NCBI GenBank assembly: GCA_034620365.1
Contig: JAQGEQ010000192.1
Coordinates: forward strand, 3,777,001-3,841,000
Direction: 5' to 3'
Length of the DNA stretch: 64,000 nt
DNA from: Pegea sp. RAD2-039
Taxonomy: Eukaryota; Chordata; Thaliacea; Salpida; Salpidae
The translations under genes and the position numbers were made by a program. The notes under the pieces were generated by a model. It ran no database searches and was not told the DNA's origin. It saw nothing but the letters and a program-made list of their open reading frames with translations. The first letter of the stretch is position 1. The number at the start of each line of letters is the position of its first letter. Below, piece after piece: positions 5,274 through 57,692 of this stretch.

Positions 5274-8200
5274 ATGGATATTCAAAGATGTCCTCTTTTT
5301 ATCGTTCTGTTCCTTTTTGGCAATTTTTCTCCGGTGAAACTTCAACAATCAACGAAAAGATACACAAATGATTTCTTAGTTACACTAAAGCCGCCGAAAA
5401 ATAATCAAAACTTGCTACTTGCCCATTGGTTGGCTAATAAACATGGTTTTGTTAACCATGGCCAGGTATTTATTTCCAAAATCATTGTGTAGTCTATCTA
5501 TAAAAATTAACTCGATTTGTTTTTGGATACAAATAATCTTGTCCTAAAAATAGTTGTTGGTGTAATTAGGTTGAATTTAACAAAATTCAGATAAACGATG
5601 CTACAAAATTGATAGAAAATACAGTTTAGATATATATATAGTTAAAAATACACTTTATCTGAAATAAGATTTACAGTATCTAATAATATCGTATATGTTG
5701 GTATTTATTATTGAAAGATGTCTTTCCCTGGTGTAGATTGTATGTACATATAACTTTTTTGATTTAGAGCGTCGTTTTGAACCAAATTTCTTAAAATAAT
5801 AAATTTTAACGATAGTTTCTTATGCTTTAATGAAATAATCTATCTTTTTAATAGGGGGAGCTTACAAAAAACTATTTTTAATTCTCCGGTTGAACAACAA
5901 CAAAATTTGATTGTTATTTGAATTTACTTTTTAGAAAATAGCTAAAATAAGAACTAACGCTTGTTACATAAAACAAAAATTGAAAAAACTTTTTAATGCT
6001 ATATGGACTATTTAAGTAAAAAAACGTTTAAGACTTTTCCATAATCTATTTGTAAATAATGTTAGATAAATTCTTACTGAAATAAAACTCACTACGACGA
6101 TATGTTATAATAAAATAATTCTTTATCATTCAATAATAAAAATAATTACATAAAATTAATTGCAACTTTACATATGAATAACCTCAAGGGTTTAAAGACT
6201 AAAATCAAAAAATTTTTAAGCTTCCTATGATTTTTTTTCTAGTTAATTTGTAAAATGAGAAGAAAACCGGCCAAGATTTTTTAATATTCAGCTGTTTTAA
6301 ACGTACTTTGTCTTAAACTATTAGATTTTCTTCCACTAGTCAAAACTTATTCAAAGAACGTATAAGCTGAAAACTATTTGTCCATGAATTACCTTTAAAC
6401 ACAGATTAGTTTATAATATCATTAATGATAACCATTGAAATAATTATATATTTTAACTGAAAAATGTATTTGTTACAGGTTGGAGGCGAGCTTGATAAGT
6501 ATCATTTTCGACACCATAATGTCAGGCCAATTTCAGTGACACCCAATTTACCACTTATTCTTAAACTTAGTCTGTCTGATCAGGTTAGTTTAAGAACTAG
6601 TTTTGTGGCTCATTAATTAATTAAGAGGTTATCAATTAAGTAAACATTAGTGTAACTATAAAAATCGGAGTAAACAATGATACCAATAAGAAAAAGTAGG
6701 TATTTTTGTTTTTGATAGAAAATCATAAAGTAAATATCAAATCGAAACTTGTCTATCAAAAACATCATTGTGTTGACTTTTGAGTTTGATTATAAATCTA
6801 ATAATTAAAAGATTAATCTTATTTTTAAAACAAAGTCAAATTTGAACTTTTAAAATGAAAACCTTAAAAGGTTTAAGATAAAAAGATTGATTATTACTTT
6901 AAAAATAAACGTTTTATGTATATGTGAGTACTAATCTAAAATGTTGACAAAATAAAATAAACAAAATAAAACTAATTTAATATCGTTTGTGGTATAAGTA
7001 TAGCTTGTCATCAAAATTGTAAACTAAATTTTAATGCTTTTTGTTTTGTTTATTTTGAGAAGATTAAAGAAAGAAAAGTGACCAACATACTTTTAGTTGT
7101 TTGTTTTTTTATGAAGTAACATAGTATTATTTAAGCTTTTGTTATGAGAGCTTTGGTTTGTAGACCCTTCAAAGCCTTTTACATCCTCCTTGTCACAAAA
7201 TCTAGATAATAAATAAATTTAAGTTGACTTGCTACCAAGGCCATTACAACTCCTTGGGTAACAGAATGAGGCCTCAAAAACTCTAGTAAAATGTTGTACT
7301 TAGTAGTGAACTTGATAAAAGTTAAGTATAATATTAGAAAAATCTATGAATAATATCAATTTTATCTAAACTTGACACTAGAAGCACCAAAGAGCTTTTA
7401 ATTAGTATTTTGACATTTTTAATCAATGAATTTTTATTTTCACATCGATTCACATGATTTGGTTAAGCTTTTCAATTTCATCATTTTTGGAAAACTTGCA
7501 AAATTTAGTAACTTATCTATCCAAAATACTTTCTTCAGGTTAAGAGAGTTGATCAACTTGAAGGTTATAACCGATTAAAAAGAGGTTACGGAAAATCTAA
7601 ACATCTATACAAAGGTCAAGATCCCTTATATGCTTTTCAATGGTATATTGTAAGTTATTAGAAATCTTTTTTGATTTAGTTTTTTACTTTAATCTGTAAA
7701 ACTTGTATTCTGTAAACCGTTGTATTTTAATAGAATTTACAGTAATTTCAATAAAATTTCTATTTGTCAACGACATTTATAATAATTTAAATCCTTATGA
7801 AATCTACCTATCATCATAATGAAGATAAAAGTTCATAATCAATTTTGTAGAACAATACTGGGCAAGCAGGTGGAAGCCCTGGTCTTGATCTTAATGTAAA
7901 GCAGGCTTGGGATATGGGTTACACTGGAAAAGGAATCACTGTTGCAATTATGGATGACGGTATAGATTATCTGCACCCAGATTTACATGATAATTATGTG
8001 AGTATATTGTCTTATTTTTTTATTTACTCAGTGTTACTTAGTTAATGGAAGTCAAAATAGAATTCTAATCAAAGTCAAACTTTTAGAAAGGTTAGTAAAA
8101 ATGTGGCTAAGAAGTCTGGTGAGAAAGTTTTCCTTTTATCAATAAGCTGACATTAAATAGAAAGTTATTAGCTGCTTATTTACATCAGTTAGATTGAAGA

Positions 8201-11200
8201 TCGTTCTTTTTTAGTTGAGACAAACTTTATTAATGTAAATATTTAAACGAAAGCCAAACAAAAAGTAAAAAGAAACTTCAACTTTAGCAACAAAATATGA
8301 TTAACTCTAATAACATTTCACAATCGCTATATTACTCATACACACATAGAGGAGTAACACGATGTTGAAACGAATTATTCACGTAACGAGTTATTGTGCT
8401 ACGAGTGATTCCACCTCTATGGCGAACAAGATTCGCAGTTAGATAAGAATCAAGTAAAGTTCTACGTTTAGACTCATCTAATTTACCCCATTCTAAAATA
8501 CAGCTTGTGTCATCAAATGAGAAAAGGACATCACGCACTAGCCTTTTTACAAAATGTGAAAGAACGCATATCAATATGTTTTCTTCAGTTTGCGTCCTCT
8601 CTAACCATGGTACAGTCGATATTACGTCAGCAGCAGTATAATTGGCAAATCCACACGGAATACGTGATTTCAAGATGACATTTAGACGTTCTGTGATGTT
8701 AGTGATACGAGCTAATTCTTGATATATCTCGTTTCGTCTCTTTTGACAAAAGTCAGTTCTTTGAGCTCCTCTATTTCTTCTTCTCTTTTTTCTTCTATTT
8801 CTTTCGCTTCGTCTTTTCTTCTTCTTCTTCCGTTTTTTGATTACAGGGGATAGTAAAAAATTGATGACTCGTTTGCAAGCGCGTTGTGATAACGACGCTA
8901 ACCCGTGACGTACCACCCACAGCTGTGAACGTATGTTCATTGTCCAGCTTCGCTTTGTCACTTCTAAGTAGTGGACTTTGTATCTCAATGATGATATCAT
9001 AAATCGTATGAAGTAAGCACCAGTCTGGTCACATGATTCTGACAAGTTGACTTGATCCAAATATATCCAAGGGTGGTTGTGACACACATCAACATTTGCT
9101 TCAAATTGCATTCTTCTTTCTCGATGCATCTTACAAGCAATGACTCTTCGATTGTGAACTGATAAGTAAACATCATTTGATATGTGACGTAAAAAAACCT
9201 TTCGTGTGTGATTAGTGGTTTCATCATGATATAGTTCAATGCTGGCTGTAAAAGGCTCAAAGGTTTAGAAGATCTAAAACTTAGAAAAAGATTTAACTAG
9301 TTCACCTTTTGAATGGTTTGAGAGAGAAGTTGACTGAAGAAAACCAAAATGAAGAATTGATGTCATGTCTCCATCAATGATTGGATAGATTGATAGATGA
9401 CGACTATGATCTTTCAAAGTGATCACGACACGAGAACTTCTACTTCGGACTTTCCAATATGACCCCTCAGTCAATCGTAAACTAGCCGTCGTGTTTTGAT
9501 TGGGTGATGACATAGTGACGTTGCAATTGTACGCGAAGAGAAGAAGGTAGAATGTGGCGAAGCTCATTTTGCCCCGAATTTCGATTCACACATCATTTCA
9601 TTAGTGGGACATGCAGTGATTTACTACTAATCTGCTGAAAGAATTGACGGTTAATTGAAGAAAATAATATCAGATAAAAACTCTACATCAGTAAAGACAG
9701 ATTATTTCATCAACATAGTTTTGAGATCTTTGCATTAGACTAGTCGGATCTCAAGAAATCTCATAAAAATAATCTCTTCAAATTGATAAACGTGCTGAAA
9801 ATGAAGATACAATTTTTTGAAGATTTAGATATGATCCATATGTATACAAAAGTAAATAAAGTATGAACTGAGACAAAGGTTTATAATGATATAAAATCTC
9901 ACTGATTGGACAGATCAATCAAACTATAAAACTAATAACTCTTTGCTAAAAGTTTTCTTGAAATAATGGAAGATAATAAACTGATTTGGATAATTTTGCG
10001 GTTTTTAAAGTTATTTGTTTGAAGCTAAAACGTAATTATAAGTCATAAAAACTATAAAAACTAAATTTCATTTGTTTAGCTAAGTAATTATATCAGTTTA
10101 GTATTTGTCAATTCTTTGCTTAATCTTCTTTTTAAAGAAACAAAAAATTGTGGAAAAAAGGTACAAAAATTGAGGAAAAAAATAGAACGATTATTTAAGA
10201 ATTAGTCCAATTAAATGAAAATATTTTATATTAGGATATATTTTAATGATTTAAAAATTGTTTAGTTCAAGTTCTCATAGTCAGTGTTTGTTTTATAAGA
10301 AATTATCTTTGAAATTATGACACTATAAGGTGCTTCAAATATGATTTTGGAAAATGATAAACTTAATTTTACAATAATGATTTTCAAAAATTGTCATTTG
10401 TGCTATTATTCAAAAAAACTATTTCATCTATTTTCTTTGAAAATCTTTTCAATTTCTATAATTACTTTTTCAATTTTTCAAGATGCAATTAATAGAATAA
10501 TCATGAAGTAAGTTTTAATTTTCTATAATGGAACAAATGTTTGTTTTACAGTCATTACCTGCCTTTACTCATCTATAAAATTAAAAAAGTTCCTTTTTTC
10601 GTCAATCTTTTCAAATTATCTGCCATTAAAGTTTTGATATTTCTGTCGTCACTATAACAACCCTAAAAGCTAGTAGATGACCAATTATAGATCAGTCATG
10701 TGACCATGCTGTTGTTCTACTCACATAAAAATAAACCATCGTAAACACCTCCTTAGTGACGTCACTACACTGCACACCTGCATACAACTCACAAGCAGAA
10801 TTTGAAATGGAAGCAGCAAATTGTTGGCACTTTTTGTGTGAGAAGAAAAGGAAGAACTATGTTGAATGTGTTGTTAAAGTTGTGGTATAAACCAAAAGCA
10901 AACAGGTTGGATAAAAAGTCATAAAAAATCTTTTGTTCAAATCCATAATCTTTAATTTTAACCCTATGTTGTTAAATTGCTTTTTTAGGGGATACTTTCA
11001 AAGGATTTTCGCAGCTGATCGAAAATAACAAAAGATCCCTGAGTTTTATGACGTTATTAATCTCACCGCTGTACATATTGGCCCTTACTTTGATTTACGC
11101 CACTAGACTATATAAACGATTGACGTTTAGCTTACGCGACCAAATAAATGTTTTTTTATCATTTTAGTTTTAATATCGCTGATTTGAGTCTTGTGTGAAG

Positions 11201-14200
11201 TAATAAGGTGATAATTCAGTACCTTGAAAACTCCTCAACTAATACTACCAACTGTCTTGTGTACAAACGTTTCGCATAAAGGTCTAGACTTACAAGAAGT
11301 ACCATATTGCAAATAAGGGCGTTATTGTAGCGATTAAGCTCTTAAAATCTGTTTTAGCAAGTTTATAAGTTTTCTATGCTAAAAGTCGAAATGGTTTTGT
11401 AGGATTTTCCAAAACATTGGAAAAGGCAAACTAAATGATTTTGCAAAATTCTTTGTCTGGTTACGTTTTATGATTTGATTGTCAATTTTATGATTGTTTT
11501 GCAGAATGCCAACGGTAGCTATGATTTCAGTGACAATGATCCTTACCCTTACCCACGGTTCACAAAAGATTGGTTTAACAGGTTTCACATTCATTTATTA
11601 CATTTATTTATAGATATTATCTCTTACATAGAACTTTGTGGACTTATTTTCTAATCAAAGGTGTTTACTAAAAACATTTAAAAATTGATATGATATATAC
11701 TTCTTAAATTACATTAGGTTAACAGTAAATAAAACGCAACATTTTTTTAACTGCTGCAGTTTATTACATTACCTACTCATCCATTAAATGCCTTTATGCT
11801 CACGTGACCATAAAGATTAAAAATCGTTCAGTATATTTTAATGTACAAAAAGTAATTCGCTGATATACGCCAGCAAAGATAATGAAAAGTTTGTAAATTG
11901 AGTTACTAAATTTAGATTTTTATTGAAAGTTATTTTTGTGATTATTTTATTGATATCCTTTTATCTGTATTATAATAAGTTTTAAAACTCTATAAATCAA
12001 AAACCTAAAGTTTGTAACTAAGAAGCAGAAACAAGCAATTAGTCAAAAACAGAAATATTTAAAATAACAAAAAAATCTTTGCTGATTGAAATACAAAACA
12101 AAAGATCAATCACTAAAATAAAACTTGTAATAAAAACACTTCCAATATTAGAAAAACTTATGATTAAAAGAACATTTAAAATAAAAATAAAAATTTTATC
12201 GACTTTATGTTTGTCTTCACATACCTTCATCTAGTCATGCATCAGCAGTATCCAGAATTTTACAATATTTTTTACTATTAAGTGCAAAAATATTATAGAT
12301 CAATTCGATTTGTCACTTAAGAATAGAATGATTGAATTTGAGCAATTAGTTTGACTTAGCTGAAAACTCAGTTCAGGTTTTGTATCAATATGTTTATCTT
12401 AATTAAAATTTAATTTTGACTTTTTATCTATAAATTTGAAGCAATTTTTATCATATATCTAGTTAAGTAAAAATATAGCAACGTATAGCTATCTAAATGT
12501 TTGTTGTTTCTGATGTTTGTATAATTTGAGCTGAAATAATAACACCTTAAAAAATAAATTGAAATTTTTTTCAACAAAATCTCAAATAAAATAGACAAAA
12601 ATGAAATGTAGATATGTTTGTACAGCCATGGTACTCGATGTGCTGGGGAGGTGGCAAGTATTGCAGATAATGGAATCTGTGGTGTTGGTGTTGCATATGA
12701 TTCAAACGTTGCTGGCATTAGAATGTTAGATCAACCGTATATGACTGACGTCATTGAAGCAAATTCAATGTCTTACAAGCCTAATATCAACCATATCTAC
12801 AGGTTAGTCATTTACATTTTTGATTATTAAAACATTTTTAGCTTTAAAAATCTTCAATTAAAAGTAACCTCAACTAACCTTTATATAAATTAAATTTGTT
12901 TGAAATCGATTTAAAAAAAAAATTAAAATTTGAAATTATTTTTACGTATCTAGTGCCTCCTGGGGTCCTACTGATGATGGAAAAACAGTAGACGGACCTC
13001 GTGAGCTTACATTAAGAGCTATCGTCAATGGTGTTAATAAGGTGATCTGAAGTATTAAAATCAATCAATAAAAAGCTACATGAAACATATTTGCTTTTTG
13101 TATCAATTCATTAAAATGATCCAACTGCCTTTTTGCAGGGAAGGAATGGGTTAGGGTCAATCTATGTGTGGGCGTCTGGTGATGGAGGAGAGAATGATGA
13201 TTGTAATTGTGATGGATATGCAGCGTCAATGTGGACAATTTCAGTAAATTCAGCAGTCAATGATGGAGAAACTGCTCTTTATGATGAAAGTTGCTCTTCG
13301 ACTCTTGCATCAACATTCAGTAATGGCCGAGGAAATAGAAAAGGTTCTGGAGTGGTGAGAAAAGCGTTTTATTAAAACGGTGACATTTATTAGCTAAGTT
13401 AGCTTCAATTTGCTCTGACCACAACTGTTAGGCAATTCTAATGACGTACATAGTGGCATCAACTTATCGACTTTTCTTTTCTAATACCATCTTGTGTTAA
13501 CAGAAAAACAGAAGTATTGATTTGTAGAATAGAAACTGTCTAGCAATAATAAATCGATCATTGTCTGGTCCTGTATTTATTTAGTCAAGTTTTAAATTCA
13601 GGCAACCACTGACCTTTATGGGCAGTGTACCTTACGTCACTCAGGAACATCAGCAGCTGCTCCAGAAGCTGCAGGCGTTTTTGCTCTTGCTTTGGAAGCA
13701 AATCAAAACTTGACATGGAGAGATGTGCAGGTTTGTGTTACTAATTTGTTGGCTTATCAAATAAATAATGTAAACAATATTTGTTTTTATCTTTAAAAGA
13801 ACATTCGAAAAGTGCTTTAGTATTGTTGCCGCAATTTTGAGCCTGATTGTCTTAAATGTCAAAACGTAGAAGTTTCCATTTTTATATTTTTAATTTTTTT
13901 TGTTGAAAAAAATATTGAAAAATTATCCCTTTTTTAATAATTCAAAAAAATCATTTTATATAATTTAGAACAAACATAGAATAACATTTTGACAATTTTT
14001 GTAGACAGCCCCTTTAAAATAACTATTGACCGAGATTGACTGTTCAAAATAACTTCTTTTGAATTTCGAAAGACTGCTGTTTAATCAATAACTTTTAATT
14101 GAAAATGAAACAACTTAAAACTTTCAATTTTGAATCAAAAATAAAATAAATTAATAGCATATAAGCATTCAGTTCGTCTACAGCATCTGACTGTTCTAAC

Positions 14201-20840: not shown

Positions 20841-23800
20841 ATGATCAATTTATTTAAATTCAGGTTGTTTTGTGATCGGACTAAATTCAATCGGCTTAGC
20901 TTTGCTCAATTAATGGTAAGTTATCACTGTTTATTATCTTTAAGTTGATTTTATTTTTTAAAGCTATTATTCGTAAACTATTTTATAAAAGTATACTTTA
21001 AGTTTTAGTCGAGTCATTCTATTTTTAAAGAGATAAATATTCTTTATAGAAGTTAGTTTGATCTTTTAAAAAGCTCTTCAATCCTAAGTGTGAAGATCAA
21101 ATAATTTTGAGAGATTATAAAAGTTAATTCTGAATTCAACTCAATCAGTCTTTTTTTAAATATGTACCTTTCAAAATAAACTAAACTAGACTTTATTATA
21201 CTCATTTTCAACTTATTATTGATTGATCTAAGAACTGATGACGCTAAATTTTTGTATTTTAATTTGCTTTCAGAGCTCGCAAGAATGCCCACAAAAAATG
21301 TTTAAGGTAAACGCTTCATTATCTTTTAATACTTGTACATAATTATTTGAGTGGTACCATTTTTTGGTAAAATTCGATCAATTATTTTATCGAGAACCTC
21401 CAAAGTATATAATAAAATATATAATGTTACTTTTAAAGTGTGCTAAAAGTTATATATATTTTGTATTATCCGTTCAATATGAACGCTACCTTAACATCAA
21501 TTAGTTTATCTTTGCTAGATATCTGAGTTTATTAAATTCAAACTTTTCTGTAAATTATTAAATAATTTATTTGAAACTTCTTGCTATATCTACCTCTCAA
21601 AGTTTAGGACTAAAAACGTGTGTGGGTATATACTTAAATTCTAAATTTATGTAAAGATATTTAGTTTGTTTTATCATTCGTAAATCACTGTTAACTAAAT
21701 TCTTTTATTTTCAGGCGTCTGAAATTAAGATTACAAGAACTGAAAAACTAAAGGAAAAGCCGACTAACTTAGACGAAACTATGTTTGGATCTATTTTTAC
21801 AGATCATATGTTAACTATCGAATGGAATAATAAAGATGGGTGGAAAACACCTACTATCAAACCTATGGATGATTTGAACCTACATCCGGCATCTTGTGTA
21901 CTTCATTATGCAAATGAGGTTTTTATTAAATATTTACTGATATTAGTGATAACTGGCATCTGCTTCAAGTTCTCGTAAGAAAGTATAATAAAGCTATAAA
22001 GATATTACGAATGGATTTAGATCTGCTGCTTTAATTATTTATTTTATTGGTTTGATTGATCATTTAAGTCATCATAATATGTTACAGCCATTTTTTAAGC
22101 TAAAAACTTTAAACTGCCATAAAAAAAATTTGAGAATCTATTGACTTTAATAGAAAAAATTCATTTTATGATATTTACAGTTTTAGTAGTTCATGTTACA
22201 ACTGGTTATTGTAGCAAGACTCAAAAAATGATTACCTAATTTAAAGAATTTCAGATTTTTGAAGGAATGAAAACTTATATAACTCCAAGAGGTGGTATAA
22301 ACATGTTTCGGCCTATGTTACATATGGACAGATTTGCAAACGGTGCCGAGCATGCATGCCTGCCTGTAAATAAAAAAATGTTTTTTCTTTATATTTAAAT
22401 TAAGAAACATTAGTTTATGGAATATCTGTACAATACTAGCAAATGTTACTTTTTCTTGAAATTCTTTATTCATAGACGTAAAAAAATCAACAATCAAATT
22501 AATACTTGTTCTGTAATACTTAGGCTACAAATGCAAACTAATTGTGCTGAAAACTGAATTTTTTGAAAACTAATGATGTTAGCAAAAATGTTGATTATTT
22601 TTGCATTAAATTCAGTTTAATTTGGTTCAACCACTTTAAATTGTAAAGATTTATAACAATTAAAACGCTCATTGAAACAGAGATATGTATGAAATGCAAT
22701 AAAGTTTAATTTTTAGACATTTGATAAGAATGAACTGCTCAAATGCATTTGTAAACTGATTGAAGTTGACCAAGAATGGATTCCAAAAAATGACAATCAA
22801 TCATTATACATAAGACCAGCTTTAATTGGAACTGAGGTAAAGAAATCTAGCTTTTATTGATGATTTGTTGGTAACTCTACTTACTTAAGTGAAGATGTTA
22901 ACTTGACAAATTGTAATATTACTAAACGAGTTTTGATTTTTTAAGAAACAAAAATACTCTTATTTGCAAGCTCTATTTTGAAACTTTATGTTTTGTAGCC
23001 GAGTTTTGGTGTCAAACGACCAACCAAAGCGTTACTATTCTGTCTGTTAACACCAGTTGGTCCTTACTTCTCAACAGGATGCTTTAAACCAATTTCTTTG
23101 CTGGCTGATCCTAAGTATGTTAGAGCAAGTAGAGGTGGTTTTGGAGCTTATAAATTTGGAAGGTATACAAAAAGCTGTTACAGATTGAGACTTTGAAAAA
23201 AATTATCAAAAAGGAATATTTTTAACTCTAACATTAGTATTTTTCTTTTGCTTTAAAATAAGTCGTAAGAAAAAAAACTCACTTAATTATTTTATAAAAA
23301 AAATATGTGTCTTTGAAAGAAAGCAAACTACAAATTTGTAACCAAAAATATGTAATTAAATAGATTCAAATTCTTAGATTAATAATCATTTTTTAATTAA
23401 CCCATTTTTGTCAACCTACTTAAATTTTGGCAACCTTTTAAAGCAATTATGGACCAACTGTATATATATACGAAAAGGCAAAGCAATTAAATTGTAATCA
23501 CGCCTTGTGGCTTTATGGAAATGAACAATTAATTACAGAAGCTGGGACGATGAATATTTTTATTCATTGGATCAATGAACACGGCAGTAAGAAAACAAAA
23601 AATAAACCCCTGCAAAGTCTAGTCAATCTAAACACCTTTTTGAACACTTTATTAAATTATTTATCTTATATCTAAACAAGTGTTTAATATATGTTTATAT
23701 GAATATAAGATTTAGGTATTATCAAGCAACCATTAATGTAATTGATAACTATTCTCTTTGAACAAATTACGAACATTTTCTTAATTTGAGTTGTAAACTA

Positions 23801-25671: not shown

Positions 25672-28600
25672 TTAAAGATTGGATGATGAAGAATCGTGAT
25701 CTGAGCAATTGTCAACAGCAATGTAAGTCCAATCATGTTCAACTCTTCCAAACTAAAACAAAATAAAGTTTAGAGTCGAATATCTTAGCAGTAAGATTAC
25801 TCATGATGAGTAGCCAAAATATCAATCAAAGAAACCTGTATAGAAGTGAGTTGGTTGTAGAGTCTGGAAGACAAACCCTCTGGGTCACATGGAATCAGTA
25901 GTTCTTCTTTCATATACAAAATCCGTTTGATGGGGCAAACAACACAAGCAGTACCAGCTCCAAACATTTCAATTAACTGTTTACAAGAAGTGATTAAAAA
26001 TATCAAACTTTCTCTTAACATCACTTACTCGTTCCTCATTCAGAGCTTTTACCAGATCTCCCATCGTAACAACTCGCTCTGTCACTTTAAAGTCACCCCA
26101 TTCCTTCGCTATTTCAAGAATCGATTGTCGAGTGACTCCAGGAAGAACAATTCCAGCATCAAGCGGCATTGTGGTGAGTTCTTTTTCTGTTAGTATCAAA
26201 TGTGATGATCAATTTGAACCCCACAAGTCGGAACAAACCTCCATTCTCATTAATCCAATAAATAAACATGTTCATGGTTCCAACTTCAGTGATTTCGTGA
26301 TCTTTTCCATACAGCCACAAAACCTGTTCACACCCTAGTTTGTTTGCTTGTTCCTGAATTCTTATTGTAGGGCCATAATTACTGTAAGCAAATCAAGGTG
26401 AGAGGATGTCTTGGAAAAGTAAATGAAAGTTTGATGCACAGCGAAAAACGAGGATTTTGAAGAGGCGCTGGGTGATATGAAATTCAATAAAACACAAACG
26501 CATCATTTCAGTTGTCCTTATTCACTTTTCTATTCTTATTTCCACGATTACAAAACAATGACGTAACTTGTTTTCAACAAAAAACAAGTTGGTAATCGAT
26601 GTGTAAAGCTTTTTCATCTCTCACGTAAAATTGCATCATTAACACGAAGCCAGACAGACTTGAACAAAACATACAGCAGTGAAGCTTTGTAATAATTTCT
26701 TCAACTGAATAACCACATAAGGTACATAGAGTTGGCTATCATGTTCAACAGCTGATAAGATTAACAAAATTTCACCTCAAGGTCAAAGATAAAACCAACT
26801 GGTTGTTACTCACTACTTAATAAATAAAAAATAAAAACCTTCCAAGTTTGTAGGCACCAAATCCACCCTTGCTTGCTCGAACAAAGCTAGGATCGGCGAG
26901 TAGGGACACCGGTTGAAAAGTTCCGGTATTAAAGTAGGGTCCAACAGGGCACAGAATGCAGTAAAGTAAAGCGGAGCTGGTCATATCAACTCCTAAAGTA
27001 GGCTGTTGAAGATGAAGATTTTAAAGGTGATCTATTGATGAATTTATATAAAACCTCAGTTCCAATATAAGTCGGGCGAATATAAAGAGAAGCTGAAGTA
27101 GTATTTGGAACCCAATCTTGCTCAATCCTCACCAATTCCGTGATGCATTTGAGCAGCTCATCACCATCAAATGACTGTTGGTAAATAAAGAATTGTATAA
27201 AACTGAATTTCGTTGAAAGACTAACAATTGGCTTACAGGTAAACAAGCTCTATTAGCACTTCGTAACATACGAGCCATGTTTAGTTGTGGTCGAAACAAA
27301 GATATCTGGTTTTTAGGAGTTCTATAGGCTTTCATACCTTCAAACAGCTATCATAACAAAGATTAAATTCAATCGGTGTAAATGGAAAGAAGGTACAGAC
27401 CTCTGTAGCATAGTGAAAAACTGCAGTGGCAGGGTGTAAGCTGATGTTTTGAAGAGGTTTAATGACTGGTCTATCCCAACCAGATTTAACATTCCATTCA
27501 ATCGATAACATATGATCAGTGAAGGTTTTGCCAAAAAGACATTTATCGGGATCTTCAGGTTTCGACTTGAGATCACCAGCTAGATTGACTACTAAGTCTT
27601 CAGCCTGTGAAATTTACATTTAATTAAAGCTTGGTACAGTTCAAATAGAAACTAAAGAATAAAAACTACTTCAATTTATTTCATATGATAGTTTCTTGCT
27701 TAAACGATTGATGTTGTGTGAAATTCTTTGTTACAAATAATCAATATAATTTTCGTGTTTCAAATCAGTTAAAAATTTATTTCAAAAGTAATTTGTTACA
27801 AATAATTTCAAAAATATTTTTTAAAAATTAAAAAAAAATTTTTTAATAAATAAAGAGATGTCAATGAGAGAAGTAAAGGGCTCATGTTTCATTTAAAACA
27901 TATTATCAATAATATGAATCCATCAAAAGCACTCTGATGCCAGGTAGGTATTAAGCAAAAGAAAATGTAAAAGCCTTACATGTACAAGCATCCTGATTGA
28001 GAACTTGACAAATACAGTAAATGTAGTTTGTCGTTTGTATATTTTCTGAAATCTTTCTTCGTTTTGTACAGCTCCTGAGCACGTAATAAGTTAACTTCTC
28101 TACTCTATGCTAAATGTAGCCCAGAATTTATATAAAATATGGATTTTTTTCAATGAATAAACAAGTAGCATAATTTTGTATGCCAATCAGTTGGATGAGG
28201 TTTTTGTTAGATGTGTCTGATTTACACCTAATTAGTTTCAAGTTAATTATAAAGCTAATTATTATAATGATTATGATGTCAAAGAAAGTCAAAAAATAAA
28301 CATGTTGTAGCAGTTGACATACGTATTAGACTAAAGTTCACAAAAATTCTTAATTTTGAAACATTAAAATAGCATTAAGTTGTGTAAAAAAGTTACTCGT
28401 GAGACAACTGCTTAATTTTGATAACCAAAAAACTCAAAAATATAAACAGGATTTAATTGATAAAAAAGTTTTTTTCAAGAAATAAAAAAGAGGGGTTCTG
28501 CTCATAGAGAATGACTTTAGGCCTGAAGCAAAATTTGAGTGTCAAGAGACACATTTTTAACAGTTTTCTACAAAAATAAGAATAGATGAATACTACCTAA

Positions 28601-31884: not shown

Positions 31885-33884
31885 TTAAAGTAAACCTTTC
31901 ATTTCTTTCATAAATGAATCATAAGCTTCATCCGCATTTGACTTATCGTTGGAATTCAATGAACTTTTTTGAGGACCAATCATACCACTAGTAAGACTTC
32001 TAGATACCAGAGGTTGGTATCTAACTGAGTTCCGAGCTTGTTTAACTTCACGTTTAACTCGCAAAGTGGTGGGCAAAAAGCGAGTTGTATCACCACGTGG
32101 TAGACCCGTTAACTGTGGCTTGGCTGAAATAGTAGCTGCAGATGAAGTCAACTTGTCATCCATATCATTGAGAGCAGAAGGTCTATTGATAAGATTCGGA
32201 GGAGCGCTAAAGACATTTGAATTGAGCTTTATAATAGATGAGCTTTGCTGCAATGCTGCTTCAGATAAGTTTAACATTGAAGGAGGTAAAGATGTGGTGG
32301 AAAGTCCTGAAGGAGGGCCAGGAGGTATGCCAGGAGGAGGTCCTGGTGGAAGGATCCCACTGGAAGATTTCATCATAGGGGGCATTCCCGGAGGTGGACC
32401 CGGTGGTAGGCCTGTGAAAGAAGATTGATGAAAGTTTTCGAATTTTTCACGATTTTATCAAACCAGGTGGAGGTCCTGGAGGTTCTAGTTGACGAAGAGA
32501 TGTTTCAGGTCCTCCATCGTCATTGTGTGGCCCACCAAGTACTGATGGAATCTTCTGACCAGCCATTTTCAACATCATAGCTTGCAAAGGTGTGACATCA
32601 GCTGATAAGGATGAGTCATCTTTCTCATCAGCAAAATGAACTCCTTTACTCAATTTACTTGAGCTTCCTACTTGATCATCTGCTTTAAAATCGAAAGTTT
32701 ACAAACTAATCAAATTGATAAACTTAAATTAGAAATGATCAGAAGTTTATCTAGCAAAGAGCTTTGAAGTAAATCATTTCAAAATCTTTCATCTTTACTC
32801 TTAATTTCAGAAAAACTTCAACAAACCGTCAAAATCATCGTGATCATCACGGTGACGAAACTCATCTTCATCTTCTGAAAGTACCTCTTCTACATCTTCT
32901 GGTCTCAATCCCTGGTTATTTTCAAATGAATCTTTAAGTTCTTTCTTCTTATCAACAGATGCTGAAAAGTTGTCATTTTATTTACGCTTAATATAAAACA
33001 GGTGTTGCTACGTACTTGTGGACACCAATTTGAGGAATTCTGGGGCATCTCTGCTTATAAACCTTTAAAAATATTTAATTTTTAATTAGATTAGAATCAC
33101 ACATGTCTAGTTAAGACTTAAAATTTGATATTAAGCAAAAAAAACTTAAATACAAATTTCTAATGAAGATTGTTTTTTGATACAAAGGAAAAATAATTTA
33201 TCAAAAAAGATCTTACACTTTTTTTGCAGGTGGATGACCAGGTGGATGACCTGGGGCATTTGAATGCCTTACATTAGCTGCTGGAAACCCAACAGCAGGT
33301 CCAAATGATTTCTTCAAAATACTTTGGGGCATGGAACCAGGCAATGGAATCTCACTGAGGTTAGGAGTTGCAAAAGGTTTATCTGGTAAAGGAATGGCAC
33401 CAAGCTCAACAGTTTCCGCATTCTTTACAGATTCACAAAAAGATTCTTTTTGATGTCTTCTGTATCGATATTCTTCCAAAAGTATTTTAAATTGTCTACC
33501 TTTTGGTGGATCTTCTTTACAATAAAACTGAACAATTCTAACCAAAGAACCTAATAACTTTCTTCTTTTTTCTTTAATAACCTAGAACATTAAGTATTAT
33601 ATAAATATATACTTTATCAATTCAAGAAAAATTATTATAGTAAATAAAACTATACAAACTTTATCATTATATGCAGGTTCAATTGTTGGGTTCAGTTCCA
33701 TCTCATCTAACTCATCTAGTTCTTTAACCATTTGATGAGGATCTTTTGTTTTAATAACAGCTTGTCTAACAGCCATGCGCTGACGTTTATTTTTCTTCAG
33801 TTCTCTTCTCCTGGCTTCCTTTCTGGCCTGGTCTGTAGGATTCATAAACTTCCCACCCTTGGTACTTGTAGTTTTGCGACCCAT
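31885..33884 (-). CDS. WBP11: WW domain-binding protein 11 (splicing factor)
   Basis: Nuclear proline-rich protein that works in pre-mRNA splicing and binds WW/SH3 domains and protein phosphatase 1. Exons in transcript order: 33660-33884, 33217-33581, 33016-33062, 32827-32961, 32464-32682, 31885-32411; 505 aa, shorter than the vertebrate protein of about 640 aa. The start is MGRKTTSTKGGKFMNPTDQA, the conserved N-terminal Wbp11 domain; codons upstream are non-ATG. Then come PLPDKPFATP and IPLPG/SILKK motifs, an acidic EDEDEF stretch, VHFADE..VTPLQAMMLKMAGQ, proline-rich PPGPPPG repeats, TISAKPQ..TRFLPTTLRVKR and the terminal FMKEMKGLL; all are known landmarks of the family. The exon 2/3 junction could shift by some codons. 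The last intron is only 52 nt, showing that very short introns are normal in this genome. Confidence 0.95.
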
Positions 33885-36432
33885 GCTCAACACTTATTTT
33901 TTTTCAACACTATTTATATAAAATTTATAAAAATGATTGAATCCTTAGAAATAATAATATTTTAAAAATTAATAAAATTTATAATGACTATAAGCCCCAA
34001 AAAGTCTTTTGACTCAAATAATAAAAATCAGAAAAACTATTAGAGAGAATTTTACATCTATTCTTAAATATTAAATTCTTATTATTGAGTTAATTTGAAA
34101 TAATAAACAACTATTGTATATATTATAATAATATCATTACTTTATTGTTCTTATATCTAATATGTAGCTTAACATATATAACAAGTATAAATTCAAAGTA
34201 AATAAAAATATATTTTAAGTTAAAAAATATTCATATATAACTTTTTATATAAAACTATATTTACAAGTTTTGAGATCAAAATATTTTATTTGCTTATTGT
34301 ACAAAGTACTATTTAAGTTCATTTTTCTATTTTACAGTCTTTTTGTAAAGCAATATTATTAGGCAATATTTTCTAATTATTTAAAATAAGACTCTTAAAT
34401 CAACCTTTTAAAAACAAACTGTTACTGCTATTTCAGATAACAACATTCAGTTAAATGATTTTTGATAAATAATGAGTATTTTTTAAGAAATAGAGACAAA
34501 AAAAATAATTTTAAAATGTTAATAGAATAGCTGTATATAAAATAATAAAATATTTTAAAAAGATTTATGTTGTTTGCAGAGTATCAACAAAATGTTATCA
34601 TATCTAAAATAAAAATATATCTAAAAAAATTAATTTTAGTAACTTTTCGAGATAAGAGCATTAATAAAATTCTTAAAAAATAATACTACTACTTATTTGG
34701 CGTTTGAACTTAGTGTACGATTTAATACATCGCTAACTTTCCAAAACTTTAGAATAACAAAAATTAATATAACTTATTATATAATTTCAGGGCTGATATT
34801 TTATTAACAATCTTTTAACTTATATCAAACTGAATTTAGAGAAAGAATTTTACTATATTTAATATATACCAAAAGTATATTTCTTAGTGGATAATGAGAT
34901 TGATTAAAACAATGTTTTTCTTTATTATTTAAATTTTTTAGGCTTCTGAAACAATAGAAACAAAAATCGTTTATATAAGTTCGACTGATTATTACCAAAA
35001 TTGATAAGAAATAACTATATTAATGATTTTAAAAACACCTCTATGATTTTTTCATGATTTAACAACAATACTCAGATAAGGATAAGCCTTATAGAAATAA
35101 ATTGTAATAAAAGACGGAAACATCACTTTATTTTTTATTAAATAAACTTTTCTTCTACATTTTTAAAGATAGGACTTTAGATGTATAGAGGCTCAACAAA
35201 AATCTTATTGTTGAAACTCGGGAGATAATACCAAAATCTACATTTTCAAAATACTTCAAATATAACTTTTTTATTTTATGACTTCAAGACTTGTTTACGA
35301 TTTAGAATATTTATGGGTAACATAGCGAAATCGACCACTTATTTTCTTTTAATGGCAAATCTAAAATAGTTTAGAAGAAATATCTGAAATTCACTAAAAT
35401 AGTATGAACATAGCTAAAATCAGAGCCTATAATTCTTTTACTTTTTTTATTGCTATTATTATTTAATAACTACTTTTATGGTGAATGATTGCCAATTTTC
35501 AAAATAACCTTAAGAGTAATAGCCATTAAACATAAGAACCACTACTTTTCTGTAAAACATAACTTTCACGGATCAACTTTCGTAAACAGAAGATTTTTAA
35601 AAGACCTGCCGATAATTTGAGTAGCTTTCATTAAATCATTTTTTTTATAACGACATAATTGATACCTTTCAAACCAATGCTTCTGTTATGCTACAAAGAC
35701 ATATTCTTCAACCTACTAAATTACTTTAGATTCATCTCTCAGAAACAAAATTACTTCAAAACTAGATCAGTAAACATCATCTAAAACTAATTATTTAATT
35801 GTGGTTTAATTTATCTGAACAATTTTCAATCGTTGTAATATAACCAATACGAGTTTAGTTGAAAAATAAATAAATACTTCAGACCTTGAAGACCTTATTT
35901 TTTAAATCAATAAAATTTCTAATAATCTCATCTTTTCAACTAAAATACTTTTCTATATAATCCTAGCATGTGAATTTCAATAAAACCCTTTGATAAGACG
36001 CTCTGTAAATTAATCGAATAAAAAGCTATTTAACGAATTGAAACTTTTTTGGAAATTTAATTTAATATTTACCTTTTATATATAAGAAAAATGTATTTCA
36101 AGAAATCGGTTTAAAAAGAAACAGCAGAGCTTCATCAAGAGGTCGAAACAGAATGACTGAAGTTCAAAGTTAATTTATTAAAAATTACAATCATGTGTTT
36201 TATAATTATAGAAATACTTACAAGATTTAAATGATAAATTACCACAAAAGAAGAAACAAAAAGATTGAATCAGCTGATAAAACTTGAAATAATAGTTTAC
36301 AACTCAGCAACAAGAATTTTCATTCAAGAAAAATATCAACCCCAATCCTCCGACCCAACCACATTCTTACTTTATCCAGGCAGGGATTATTTCAAGGCAG
36401 TAAATTTAAATCAGGCAACAATTTCGATTATT
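33885..36432. other. AT-rich spacer between WBP11 and POLR1F
   Basis: Extremely AT-rich on both strands with homopolymer runs. Nothing recognised. Confidence 0.6.
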
Positions 36433-41700: not shown

Positions 41701-42027
41701 TGATCTAATCTTTTATTATATCTATTTCAAATCATCGAGAAATAAGTTATTATAAATTAATTTTCTGATTACTTTGTTATTCAAGATGACTTGAAGTTTA
41801 TTCAATGTACCATGGTAAAATTTTGAATTGATAGCATGTTAATTTAATTGTTTAACTTCAGGCTGTAAGAATTCTATAAAATTATATAGTAAGTTTTTAT
41901 TTGTTAAAATTTATTTTTACAATTTTCTCTCAATTGTGGTTAACTTAGTAAAAGCTTTTTCAAATCGTAATGATGATCTATCTGAAACAACTCAACGTGC
42001 TAAGAGTTCTAATTTTTTTACTTAGAT
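38757..42027. other. AT-rich spacer between POLR1F and CCDC24
   Basis: Contains the presumed divergent promoters of the two genes. No gene recognised. A less AT-rich patch near 41030-41110 carries an RFX X-box-like element at 41038-41050. Confidence 0.55.
41038..41050. promoter_or_regulatory. X-box-like element upstream of CCDC24
   Basis: GAAACC-T-AGCAAC resembles the RFX X-box (GTNRCC, short spacer, RGYAAC) with one mismatch in the left half. RFX factors drive ciliary genes. It is about 1 kb from the CCDC24 start codon, so the link is tentative. Confidence 0.2.
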
Positions 42028-43189
42028 ATGAAAGCAAGTAAGAAAGTACTACCATATAAAAAACCATTTTCAGTTTGGGAGTTAATAAAATCAATTGTAC
42101 CTAATGAAGAACTTCCTATTATTCAATCTGCTATTGGTGAATCACTCATTGAATCATGTATTGATTTCAAAAATGAGATTGAAGTTCTCTTACAAATTTT
42201 GAATGATATTAACTGTAATAAAGAATTTATTTTTTCAAATAAACCCAAAAACTCTCTACCAGAATCCCCACGAATGAAAGAAATGTTGAAGATGGAAATA
42301 AAAATGTTAGCTCAAAATTTAAACTTTAAATCAAACATTCAATATTCATCATTAAATGAATCCAATATAAAAACAATTGAATATATTTCGGAAAATGTCG
42401 CATCTGACGGACCTTCAATTCCTGTTCGGTTGCAAGAAAATTCAGCTGCTTCATCATCTTCTCCAGTCAAGTTAAAAGATGTAAAGAAGAAATATAAACG
42501 TTTGTGATGTTGATAGAGTCCTCCAGATCCTTAAAGACGCTGTTTTAAAGGAGTGTAAAACACTGGAACAAGATATTAAGTTTTTGCAGGAATCTATCGA
42601 GCAAGCACATACATCTAATCACCAAAGATCTGTTGGTAATGACTGTGCAGTCGAACCGACAATGATACAATTAAAGGAAGCGAGAAAGAATCTTGAAAAT
42701 GAGATCTTGCATTCCTGCCGTAAATCTGCTTCAACACGATTATCAAGTGCCCCTTCTACTTCTTCGTGGAAATCAAAAGTTCCTGATTTACTAGCAACAA
42801 CAAAAGTTGAGGTTCAAAAAACAAGCAGTTGTAAGAAGTTTAAAGTTAAAGAATGCTGGGTAGAACCTTCATGGACAAATGAAATGAATGATCATTCACC
42901 GATGGTAAGTCGTCCATCTACTAGAGACTTGAATACTATTCAAAAAAGGCTAGACACTTTAAATATAAACTCTTCAAAAACATCAGATGTCGTCAAAACT
43001 CATTCTTTAGATGATATAGAAATTCATAAACCAACCATAAAAAGAATGCCCAAAAATAATAACGATCATACTATTAATAAAAGTTCAAATAAACTTTTAA
43101 CTACTCGTCAGCAGTTGATAAAAAATGGGACTCTTCTGAATTCACCTATTTCTAAAGTTAATTCTTCAAATTTACAAAAAATTATGTAA
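42028..43189 (+). CDS. CCDC24: CCDC24 homologue interrupted by a one-base frameshift
   Basis: Frame 1 (42028-42507) begins MKASKKVLPYKKPFSVWELI and contains NEELPIIQSAIGESLIE and the SPRMKEMLKMEIKMLAQNL segment, matching the order W-E-L-(x)-P..LLRQELR-x-LLQGL of CCDC24 as I remember it. It then stops at TGA after KKYKRL. Coding resumes at once in the +1 frame with CDVDRVLQILKDAVLKECKT, LEQDIKFLQESIEQ and AVEPTMIQLKEARKNLENEI, which correspond to the next conserved block (IDQVARHL..EECHTLEREI..EPTLAELKEQKKAMEQE in human), and ends at 43189. Without the extra base the product would be about 386 aa. A GT-AG intron at 42481-42589 would rejoin the frames but would delete the conserved block. A splice acceptor two bases before the ATG suggests trans-splicing or a 5' UTR intron. 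Function is poorly known; the family is coiled-coil and expressed in ciliated tissue and testis. Confidence 0.8.
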
Positions 43190-48561: not shown

Positions 48562-50667
48562 ATGACCTTAAATATTATTGAAAACATTGAAGAACTTAAA
48601 AAGTATGATCAACCAAAAATTATAAAAATCGCAACCTGCTCTACAACGAAAAACTTTTATGCTGAAAGTAAGACCATTATTGATTGTATTTTGTCCTAAT
48701 ACTACATCTACCTATCTATCTATTATATATACGTAGAATTTATCAATGAAGACCAGGAAAACAAATTATCAAGAGGCAGTGAAACTTCAACAATCGCTAA
48801 TTCTGATATCTACTCTTGGAACTTTGAAATTTTTTATTTTGAAAATATTAATAAGGAAAGGTTAGTGAAAAATAAAAGATTATAATTGTAAGATAAAATT
48901 TAAAAACTTTAGATCTTTAAACTTTCATTATGAATGTTTTGTCAATTAAAAATATTTTCAACGTAATCGCAATTATTACTTTCAATTTTAAAATTATTTC
49001 CAAGACTTCCAATCTTACCGTTAAATAGTATTGTATTAAAATAAGAAAACTTCTGAAATATTTTAATCGCATAATTAGGTTTTTAAAAATTATTTTTATG
49101 TACGTAGAACTTTGGTTATAATGGGAATGACTATACTTGAAGATTTTGATGCTTTAAATGTTCTTAAATGTTCAAAAAAAATTCTTCAAAACTGGTTAAC
49201 TAAAGTTGAAGAAAATTATTTTTCCGAGAATCCTTATCACAACTCTACTCATGCTGCAGATGTGCTACATGCCACGACATTTTTGTTGAATCAGCCAGAC
49301 ATGGAGGTCTCATTTAATTTAATTCACAAATTTATTAAATGAAAATCTGGCTTATTAAGATAAATTGCTAGATTTGTTTAGTGAAAACCATATCAAAGTT
49401 ATATGTTAGCTTTTTATACGAAATACTTTGTTCATTTAATCTCATAGTTAAATGTTTAAAAAAGTTTTCTAAACTTAATATTTATTATTTAGAAATGGTT
49501 TGATAAAATAGACAAAGTTGCAATTTTGCTATCAGCTATTATTCACGATGTTTCGCACCCAGGAAGATCTAATACATTCCTTATCAATACCAATAATGAA
49601 TTAGCAAGATTATACAATCACAAGTAAGTAAAAGTTAGAAAAACAGATATTTTTGAAATTTAGCTTTTACTAAAAAAATTGAATCTTATTTCTGTACGGT
49701 TCATTTGTTTTAAAATTGCGGGATTTATTCTTTCAGTTCAATATTGGAGCATCACCATTTCAATGTTGCTTTTTCTTTTACTTTAAAAAATGATAATTGT
49801 AATATATTTGCAAATCTAAACAAGTAAGTTTTTATTAAAACCGTTATGCGTATAAACATTAAAAATAAAATGAACTTTAAATAGTGATGAGTTTGAGTAT
49901 ATGGAAGATTCTATTGCTAAATCAGTTTTGGCAACTGATATGTCAACTCACGATGAACATATCACAGATTTTGTGAGTTTTTTTGAAGGAATTAAATATA
50001 CTCAAGTAAGTAAAATGCATGCACCTGACTAAAGTAAATGTAGTTTATGACTATTTGCAGGGAAATCTATCTGAAGAAAGTCTACAATTTGGCAAAGGAA
50101 TCATTCAAAGAATTATATCTAAGATAGCTGATATTTCCAATATTAGTAAAAAAAGAGATATTAGCTTGGAGTGGACGTATCGTATAACAGAAGAGTTTTT
50201 TCAACAAGTTAGCAGATGGCTTGCAATTATAAGCAGAAATCAAAATATCTTTGATCATTAAAATTACATATTACTCAGTAAAAGGTGTTATGATGATTAA
50301 TCGCTTATTTTCTGTTTAATTCGTAGACTGACGAGGAGGTTAGTCAAAATCTTCCTCTTTCATTACCCGACTTCAAGCGTAACTCATGCAATTTACCAAT
50401 TACTCAATCTTACTTTATTCAAAAATTTGCTATAGGTCTCTTTGAAGCATATAATAGTAGGTTTTTTTCTTTAAAAAATTTAATTTAGAGGTAAAATTGT
50501 TGTATAAGCCATTTCTAACATAGCTTATTTTTACAGATGTTTTTGATGTGACGGAGATCTTATCTCATGCTCATACGAATCTTTTGTTTTGGGAGAAACT
50601 CACAAGTTTTAAGTTGAAAAGTGTTGAAGAAGTGAGAAACTTTTGTTTGATCAAAGAAAATGATTGA
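48562..50667 (+). CDS. PDE8-like 3',5'-cyclic nucleotide phosphodiesterase
   Basis: Class I phosphodiesterase that hydrolyses cAMP (PDE8 is cAMP-specific). Exons: 48562-48667, 48737-48860, 49108-49306, 49493-49623, 49737-49823, 49885-50005, 50061-50207, 50327-50456, 50537-50667; 391 aa. The region from YSWNFEIFYFE onward follows the PDE8 catalytic domain: YHNSTHAADVLHAT (His121 and His125), HDVSHPGRSN (His161, Asp162, His165), LEHHHFNVAF, VLATDMSTHDEHI, KIADISN (metal Asp280) and the nucleotide-clamp Q332-S-Y-F335. All metal and substrate residues are present. The usual second Asp in HDVDHPG is Ser. The N-terminal REC and PAS domains of PDE8 are absent, and the loop between HDEHI and LIKR is short. 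The frame is open to the acceptor at 48550, so upstream coding exons could exist, although none was seen in 5 kb. Confidence 0.85.
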
Positions 50668-53119: not shown

Positions 53120-55154
53120 TTATTGTAATTTAGAAACTAGAATTTCATTTTTTCTACATTCTTCCTGAAAATCATGAACCGTTTTCACATATTGTCTATG
53201 CTTTTCTAATAAATTGTGATGATTTTCGTTCAGTTCATCTCTTCTTACTTTCTCTAGCTGCTTCTTCTTTTCAACCTAAACAGAAATCATATTTTCACTT
53301 TCACTAAAGTAAAACTATATAGAAACTTCACCTTTATTTTGTTCGCTTTTACACCATCAACAATCTTCTCAAATTGTTTTAGATACTGCAACATATTAGA
53401 AGAAGATCCTGTAGCAGCTTGAAAGTTGTCATAAACAGAATCAAGAAGATCAGCTTCTTTCTCTAGATATCTTCTAGAGTCATCTAATGTATTGTACTTA
53501 GTGTAAAACTGCTTTGTTTCAACATGAGTTTGTGAAATCTACAACCAAAAAGACATTTTTTAAATTCATTTATGATTTAGTTCAAGATATTAAGTGACAA
53601 AAACTTTACCTGATCATAAAGTTCCACAAATCGTTTTTGATATTGAGTAAGTTCAGCTCTTGTAGGTATTTCATCTAACTTTCTACTTAATGCTGCTGAA
53701 TAACGGTTTTTTGCAGCAAGTGAAAACCGCATTTTTGACAATCTTTCATAATCTGCTGAATGTTGATTCTTCATCACATCATCATTCTCATTTTCAACTT
53801 CTTTACTTTTCGCAATTTGTTCTTCTAATTCAGCAATATCTTCTTTCAACTTTTTATGAGCTTCTTTACATTCATTCTTGAAACTAAGCTCTTCTTTTTT
53901 AAGCTTTTCATGAAGCAGCACCAGTTCCCTAATCTTCTGCACATCATTTTCATTTGCTCCCTCTTCTATTTCATGCAGACGTTGAAATTCTTCTTCAATT
54001 GCAGTCTTCAAATCATCTTGCTCACTGACTTCTTGTTCTAATTGTTGTTTTAGAGTCAAGATTGAATCCAATTGGCTTTTAACTTTTTCTTTTTGCTCTA
54101 AACTTTTTGCTAATTCATTTTGAAGCTTCTTCAAGTTATCTTTAACATCTTGAATTGGATCAAGCATACTTTTGCTGACAGATTCTTCTATTTCTGCTTT
54201 CTTTTTTGCAAAAGTATCGGAAATTTCTTGTATTTCTTCTGACTGCATACCAACAATAGAACCAATTACTTTTGAGGCTAGTTTCCCTTCAACTTCACGA
54301 CCAGACATTTCCAGCATCCCTCCCATCAGCTTTTGCAAAACTTTTTCTTGCACCAAACGAATTCTTTCTTCTTCATCTTCTTCATCTCCAACTTTAAGAG
54401 AGTTAAATTTAGTCAAAGAAGATTCTGTAGTTGATGTTTTACTAGATTTAATTGATAGTTTGCTTTGGTTTTCTTCATTATTGCCAACAACAGCTAGTTT
54501 TCTATATTCAAGTAAAGTAGAAGAGACTTTTGCCTCTTCTGTGCTTAACAACTCTTTTTCACCAACCCTTTTAAACTTTCGTATCGGTTTATAGTGGAAT
54601 TGAACATCTTTTAATGCTTTTGCAACTTTTTTCATTTGCTCTTCATCTTTTTCACCAGGTATCAAATACTGTTTATCAAATTGAGAAATGCTATATGCTC
54701 TTCTATGGTCTCCCAAAACTTCCCGAGTTTCAATCACTTTTTTAACCAGCCACTGTATAACAGGAAATATGCTTTTGAAATCCAGTCCTTGAATTTGATG
54801 AGGTTCAATGGGACTTGGACATACCATTTTCTTCAACACTAGAACAATCTTTTCTGTTAAAGCAATTTTTTGACCAATGGTTGAATTTTCTTGAAAAAGC
54901 AAATCAATATCAATTTCAAATGTACAATTAGTAATACACCATGTTATTCCACCAACTACTTTATCAAAAGATGATAACCCTTTAATTCTAGCCCTGAAGT
55001 ATCCAGCTGCTATCAGAAGACCAATGATTTCTTGATATTTGATCTCTTGACCTTCATCTTCTCTAGTCTCGATTAGTATTTCATTTCCTTCTTGATCTTT
55101 TTCTATACCAACTTTTAAATTACTTTTAACTTTTCCAAGAGCAGAATTGAACAT
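53120..55154 (-). CDS. CCDC93: CCDC93, subunit of the CCC/Commander complex
   Basis: Coiled-coil partner of CCDC22 and COMMD proteins in the CCC complex, which works with Retriever and WASH in endosome-to-surface recycling. Exons in transcript order: 53610-55154, 53332-53538, 53120-53275; 635 aa, against 631 in human. The N-terminal calponin-homology-like domain (about residues 1-150) includes [40 protein letters not shown] and FDKQYLIPG. Long coiled coils run from about 300 to the end. The C-terminal part ([63 protein letters not shown]) is closely similar to the human end. Start ATG at 55154 is the first in a frame that is closed just upstream by the acceptor-like CTTTAG. A single 1.5-kb exon carries most of the protein. 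Confidence 0.95.
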
Positions 55155-57692
55155 TTTTCAGTTAGACTAAAGACTAATTTAAATGATGAACCAGCTAATA
55201 CAACTTGTCCTAAATGATATTTACTTAATATATATAAGACAAATATTTTAACAAAACTACTATTAACAATTATATAAGAAAAGAAACAAGTTGAATTTAT
55301 TAAATTAAGTATTATAACAAAGAAATTACCATAAGTGATTTTTATTATATATTACCTCTATTTCTATGATAGTCTTATGATACTTCTACTATATTAGACA
55401 AACAAAAGTTTTTTTTCATAATCAAATGATAACTACAAAATTGTTCATCACTCAAAAATGATTCTATAATCTTCATAGAACGTTATAAACATGTTATTCA
55501 ATATCCTGATTATTTCATGTGTTCAATTATTACTAAAATATTGTATACTAAGATAAAGTATAAATAGAATCAAACTATATGATAAAATAAACAAGTTAGA
55601 GATAAAAAATCTAAATCTGGAATAACTTATTATCAACAGAATCTAATTTAGTTTCAAACAAGTAATGATACTTTTGAAAAATGTATATTTTGAAATACTC
55701 ATTTATCTAAAAGATAAATTATATTAATTGATTATAGATTAAATAAACTTATAAATGTCTATGTGCTTTCTGTTTTTCAAATAGAATAAAAAATAATTTC
55801 AAAAAACTAAATTTTTGTTAATTTTTAAAAAAGGTAAAAAAATAATGTATAATAATTAGTATCTTAATAAAAAAAGTATAAATATCTATTTCATTAAAAA
55901 AAGTCTACCAAAAAAGCAAGCACAAATTTTATAACTTAGTAAACATTGTTAAATAAATCAAATATAAATAAAATATCTTCTTTTATAATTTATTATATTT
56001 TGTTGTGTTTTCTAAAAATAAAGATTATACAGATATTTATCATGAATTCAAGCTTGAAAGTTAAAATAGAACTATTATTTTGATTCATAATCAGTTACTG
56101 ATGTTACTAAAATGTACCAAATAAATATGTTTTATGAATGCAAAACTTTAGTTGATAAATTCTGTAAACAACTTTTAAACAACGCAAGTTGTAATCAATA
56201 CACTTTGGTAATTATATTATTCTTTATTATCGCTTAAAATGTTGCTTGGTTCAATTAAATTTATTTATTTGGTTTAAATCATGTAAAATTGAGATGATTA
56301 TGATTAAAAAATTTAACACTCGCTATTAAATTTATTGATACACTTTTTGTCTTTTATAAAAATTGAAACATAAAAAAGTACAGAATAGTAAAATTGTGTA
56401 ATTTTTTAATAAGGTAATTAAGCAATTTTAAATAAAAATTCTTTTTATTAATTTTTTATCATGTAGAGATAAATAATAGAAAAATAAAATTTATACTGAA
56501 ATAGATTAGTTATTCTTATAGTAAAGGCAAAAATATTCAGGAGTATGAGTCTTAAGGATTTAAAGCTTTTGAATGAAAAAATTAATTGCCTTACTGAATA
56601 CTATTTAAAAATTTATTAACTTTTTTTGCAAAACAGAATTTAATTTCTTATCATAGTTGATAATGAAAATATATTTAAACAGTGTATCCACTTCTATCTA
56701 GGTCTATGGCATATCCCAATTTTGTAAAGATTAGTATTGTATACTTTTTTTAGTTTACTAAAAATGTTCTATCCCGTTGAAATCTTAAGAATAAAAAATA
56801 AGTACTGACTGAAGAATACTTACTAAGGAAGCAAGTCACTGATCAAGCAAAAATGATAATTTCAAGAGTTAAACAATTTAAAATGGTCTCTGTAAATCAT
56901 CCTTAAATTCTATAAGTTTTTTTTTTCATTGAATATCTTTGGGTTTCCTGATGTCAAGAACAACTATTCAAGTAAATTTAAGGCTCGGTAGTTGGTGTAA
57001 CTAACGTTTGGTATTCAGCCTTTCGTTATTCTTCAGTTAGTTTCAATCAATAAACCGTCAATCAACTACTTATGATGAAATTGATTGGAAAAATAGAAAA
57101 TTAAGCTGCTGTAAAATTTGAATTGATTATAAGGCACAAAGACTGATTAGAGAAGCAGGGTGTCAGTCTTATATTCTGCTACTTATATTGTGCTCAGTTT
57201 TTGAATGTAATAATCAATTAGTTTGCCAGCCTTGTAAATAAGTTTCTATCATTCAAGTACTTTTTCAAAGTTAGAAAACAGATCTCATTAAATACAACTC
57301 CAGCTTACATATAAACTGAAAAATTATATGTGTTCCAGAACATTTTATAGAACTAAATCTAAGCATTTATCGTGCATTTATTTTTTATTTATTAACCAAC
57401 GATTTTCGTATATACTAGCACAATAAATCTTATGTAGTTGAATATACAAAGATTAGCAATAGAAAAGAAATAGTTTCAAAAACTAAGCCTTAATAGGTAT
57501 CTAGTCAGAAATTGTATTATTTTAGGAAAACATCACAACACTAAAAAGCAACAACTTATAAAATAGTCATTTAAAAGCTTGAAATTGAATTTTGGCTCCT
57601 CAATCAAACTTTGATGCTACATCTTACCACAAACATAAAGATAATCAATTTGAAAATAAAACATTTAGCCTATTTACAAATTGTGTCGTCTC
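55155..57692. other. AT-rich spacer, nothing recognised
   Basis: Low-complexity AT-rich sequence on both strands. The stretch around 56940-57240 is slightly less AT-rich and has no open frame of note. Confidence 0.6.

Follow-up and report, generated by a model that had tools for sequence, protein, structure and literature searches.

We asked whether a two-exon gene predicted on the minus strand of a 64,000-nucleotide stretch of DNA (the window) encodes a divergent ligand of the FGF family, and in what kind of animal it does so. An earlier note had predicted a 391-aa secreted protein, encoded antisense inside an intron of PC2, from two minus-strand frames linked by a 60-nt GT-AG intron. We recovered the frames, 9274-9585(-) and 8332-9264(-), in the open-reading-frame listing of the window, and excision of the 60-nt GT...AG stretch yields a single 1,176-nt CDS of 391 aa plus a stop. 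Exon 1 (9306-9567, minus strand, 262 nt) holds the start codon, a signal-like N-terminus and the first third of a putative trefoil. The phase-1 intron (9246-9305) is followed by exon 2 (8332-9245), which contains the other two thirds of this putative trefoil, a polybasic segment, a C-terminal extension and the stop codon. The longest open reading frame spans 310 codons, against a mean of 81 and a maximum of 153 in 300 composition shuffles of 8332-9567, and the G+C content of the CDS is 38% versus 28% in the remainder of the PC2 intron. An AATAAA polyadenylation hexamer, read by eye, lies 101 nt beyond the stop (8226-8231, minus strand). The prediction of a two-exon minus-strand gene at 8332-9567 is confirmed as a sound observation.

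The host gene was located with a PCSK2 query sequence, which matched plus-strand exons on both sides of the candidate: one upstream (7851-8021), where the match extends a few codons beyond a GTGAGT donor, and one downstream (11505-11579). Judged by these matches, the candidate is antisense inside a PC2 (PCSK2-like) intron, as had been proposed. The PC2 alignment is broken by gaps of 66, 69 and 75 nt that resemble short introns of that gene, so an intron of 60 nt appears ordinary here. Elsewhere in the window, Pfam identified WBP11 (33597-33893, minus strand), CCDC24 (42013-42507, plus strand) and CCDC93 (53577-55157, minus strand), together with a match below the cut-off to a cyclic nucleotide phosphodiesterase (49079-49342, plus strand). 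Two similar frames in opposite orientation, 21655-21978(+) and 27332-27613(-), look by eye like exons belonging to branched-chain aminotransferase copies and had no Pfam match at 0.01.

The sequons and the polybasic segment that had been listed for the protein are present as well. By hydropathy the N-terminus is hydrophobic and signal-like, and there are eight N-glycosylation sequons, one of them within the signal-like region. The polybasic segment (8764-8838, minus strand, counted from the CDS) covers residues 224-248, with 19 K/R in 25, and includes two of the three R-X-[KR]-R sites of the protein. The segment and the three sites hint that the protein may be retained on heparan sulphate and possibly cleaved. 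The C-terminal extension, put at about 145 residues in the earlier note, measures 144 aa (8335-8766, minus strand); its frame is open and encodes five cysteines, and a single-sequence AlphaFold model of it is mostly helical at low confidence (pLDDT 39.2). Searches with the extension gave no hit in Pfam, nothing in the PDB better than E 0.55 and, at E<=10, no second genomic copy. For the whole protein, no relative turned up in the rest of the genome at E<=0.001, nor did the trefoil part find one among viral contigs. A scan for bacterial promoters and terminators, which was not designed for animal DNA, returned nothing above chance.

We next consider the host, which the earlier note had supposed might be a planarian. 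A locus at C14 (68000-77900) contains a glycosyltransferase-2/cellulose-synthase exon (Cellulose_synt, 31.3 bits against a cut-off of 24.7), and after it, in the same orientation, come two GH6-matching exons, one at 35 bits (cut-off 27) and one at 21.9, below that cut-off. A cellulose synthase paired with GH6 in an animal is a tunicate trait. Because of this GT2+GH6 cellulose synthase locus and an orthologue of FGF11/12/13/14 (FHF), described below, we assign the host, on its gene content, to the tunicates; the same two loci rule out a planarian or rotifer origin. An appendicularian origin was considered as well. Ku is lost in Oikopleura; here Ku matches occur at two loci of the genome, so an Oikopleura-like loss is not seen. 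A COX1 search for the mitochondrial code gave nothing at E<=0.001. In an excerpt of PMC3420111, tunicates are described as having known FGFs, in sets that are reduced and hard to classify, and the FGF11/12/13/14 subfamily is described in Ciona and Oikopleura.

A search of the genome (105.7 Mb, 387 contigs) with PF00167 at E<=10 gave 11 exon matches spread over seven loci, and 7 of the matches lie above the cut-off. Four loci (C3:4517, C58, C3:1837 and C293) are above the Pfam cut-off and three are below it: C28 (21.7 bits), C71 (16) and C35 (15.9). The exons of C71 and C35 reached noise-level scores in a small four-member profile, and for C35 no first exon was found. In a leave-one-out hhalign comparison, with exons joined by hand and some of them chosen from the frames by eye, C28, C71 and C35 reached 97.83, 96.47 and 96.75, and for this reason we count all three as probable FGF loci. 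The gene at C3:4517 scores 157.7 bits to FHF1/FGF12 versus 95.9 to FGF9, which identifies it by similarity as the FGF11/12/13/14 orthologue. A minisatellite reading RRSEEDQKKI repeats on one strand adjoins its exons (C3, about 4517980-4518450), and long polybasic stretches stand before or after the FGF core in a frame of C293 (2518-3684) and in one of C35 (8242-8607). There is at least one FGFR, a count that comes from four loci inspected among 128 kinase matches: a frame at C47, uninterrupted for 699 codons, contains a kinase domain that among PDB entries is most similar to FGFR1 (352.6 bits). This receptor lies around 787934-788767 on the minus strand, and its N-terminal part looks Ig-like by eye. 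The genome therefore has an FGF pathway with several ligands. With four other FGF loci above the cut-off, three probable ones and an FGFR in a tunicate genome, the candidate does not supply a missing planarian FGF ligand, and the ground on which it had been rated of high interest falls away.

Is the candidate itself an FGF? By sequence it is not a recognisable one, and tests of membership fail or are marginal. At E<=10, PF00167 matched neither the whole protein nor its first 202 residues, and the locus is absent from the 11 exon matches in the genome; since domain membership was tested and not found, we do not file the candidate under PF00167. Aligned to FGFs with hhalign, it obtained a probability of 0.13, and 289 of 500 shuffles scored equally high. 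The seven paralogue loci, each scored with itself excluded, reached 96.47-99.78, an easy control in that they had been found through PF00167. A HMMER profile of 13 FGFs gave 5.6 bits, which was equalled by 141 of 40,000 shuffles overall and by 98 of 40,000 on the best domain; it aligned the stretch [17 protein letters not shown] of the candidate with an FGF strand pair.

The HMMER signal varied with the null and with the members of the profile. When shuffles preserved the hydrophobic pattern, 245 of 20,000 scored as high. A profile of the genome's own FGF loci was matched by 105 of 20,000 shuffles and aligned only beyond the exon junction. A profile without C28, C71 and C35 gave the register of the 13-FGF profile again (165 of 20,000 shuffles as high), and the genome's own loci without the FHF gene gave a different register (122 of 20,000). 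Six reference FGFs alone produced no signal, with 4,509 of 20,000 shuffles as high. None of three pairs showed a significant internal trefoil repeat (3,077, 259 and 2,518 of 5,000 shuffles as high); the same comparison on FGF9 as a control gave 157 and 138 of 5,000. Recurrence of the motifs was found in 1,671 of 20,000 shuffles. The heparin-binding glycine box that precedes the last strand in FGFs was absent by eye from a MAFFT alignment with FGFs. A single-sequence AlphaFold model of the intron read-through, made without relatives and of low confidence (pLDDT 31.5), shows eight strands and no helix.

The position and phase of the intron point the other way. The candidate's junction codon is G|CC, in phase 1, and is followed by S-I-E-L; the corresponding residues are A-L-E-F in C58, L-L-E-M in C3:1837 and L-I-E-V in C293, all in phase 1, and among the weaker loci I-M-V-I in C71 and A-L-I-F in C35, also in phase 1, with C35 placed by its acceptor only. 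The candidate's intron falls at the exact aligned residue of intron 1 in these five genes. In C28, intron 1 is likewise in phase 1 and lies two aligned residues further on, and the FHF gene is without an intron at this place. We take the shared phase-1 place to be that of intron 1 in vertebrate FGFs also. In a forced MAFFT alignment the junction lay at offset 0; of 200 shuffles, 1 did the same, 7 came within 1 residue and 14 within 3. Agreement in phase contributes a further factor of about three. The 13-FGF HMMER alignment placed the junction at offset 0 unprompted, and only 1 of 40,000 shuffles combined such a domain score with a register within 3 residues. Among the shuffles preserving the hydrophobic pattern, 133 had such a domain score, of which 44 spanned the junction, 11 came within 3 residues and 0 lay at offset 0, so with this null the register carries less weight. 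The candidate does not have the paralogues' phase-0 intron 2; its second exon continues across that place. The earlier note did not use the intron place, so the evidence from the phase-1 intron is for the most part independent of the way in which the candidate was picked. FGF ancestry of the candidate therefore stands as likely, mainly on intron place and phase; Pfam and hhalign do not recognise it as an FGF, and support from HMMER is marginal.

Taken together, we consider it probable that the candidate is a fast-evolving secreted FGF-family paralogue or FGF-like factor that bears a polybasic linker together with a unique C-terminal extension. Its N-terminal 200 residues would form a secreted, diverged beta-trefoil that may act on or near an FGFR, while the polybasic segment would anchor the protein on heparan sulphate. 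Furin-like proteases might cut at this segment and free a helical C-terminal piece, and the second intron seen in other FGF genes would have been lost. The alternative that we take most seriously, although we think it unlikely, is a lineage-specific, beta-rich secreted protein with no kinship to FGFs, its motifs and intron place matching by chance. Such a protein would account for the failure of standard homology searches and for the lack of relatives in the genome, and the order of motifs had been picked out by eye in the first place; what it leaves to coincidence is that intron place and phase both match FGF intron 1 and that the 13-member profile arrives at offset 0 unprompted.

Two narrower readings accept FGF ancestry. 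The protein could be a relic that no longer signals through an FGFR, with a helical C-terminal module, released at the furin-like sites of the polybasic segment, doing the work. A trefoil region diverged past recognition fits such a relic, as do the open frame, the five cysteines and the modelled helices of the extension; the module, however, has neither a recognisable domain or structure nor a second genomic copy, and we find this improbable. A two-part secreted signal, in which an FGF paralogue beyond the reach of the profiles tried has kept the old FGF intron and gained a new, cleavage-released helical module while nested in a prohormone-convertase intron, would be a long shot. That the gene is decaying or mis-modelled and makes no protein would agree with the lack of relatives in the genome or viral contigs, but is highly improbable given a frame twice as long as any in the shuffles, a coding-like G+C content and an AATAAA soon after the stop.

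If the probable reading as an FGF paralogue holds, the candidate is probably an extreme case of a known family. A gene that profiles miss and its intron betrays hints that FGFs may be undercounted in fast-evolving tunicates, and intron place and phase may be a way to find such hidden members; the finding has no bearing on planarian FGF ligands. A 2025 paper reportedly treats FGF loss and duplication in appendicularians, and among the literature matches listed none dealt with divergent tunicate FGFs of this kind. A possible parallel, by description only, is a possibly highly derived FGF of Ciona robusta mentioned in an excerpt of the Corella inflata genome paper (PMC7337526).

Within the genome, the candidate's intron sits at the residue that intron 1 occupies in C58, C3:1837, C293, C71 and C35, in phase 1 as there (C28 being two residues off), and the candidate shares with these FGF-type loci the order of the strand motifs of exon 2 and, with some of them, polybasic stretches. 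It differs from these loci in that they are matched by PF00167 or by leave-one-out hhalign and the candidate by neither, in its C-terminal extension, which the others do not have, and, relative to C58, C3:1837 and C293, in being without their phase-0 intron 2. The FHF orthologue, finally, belongs to the FGF domain family and is strongly conserved, whereas the candidate, unlike it, carries a signal-like N-terminus.
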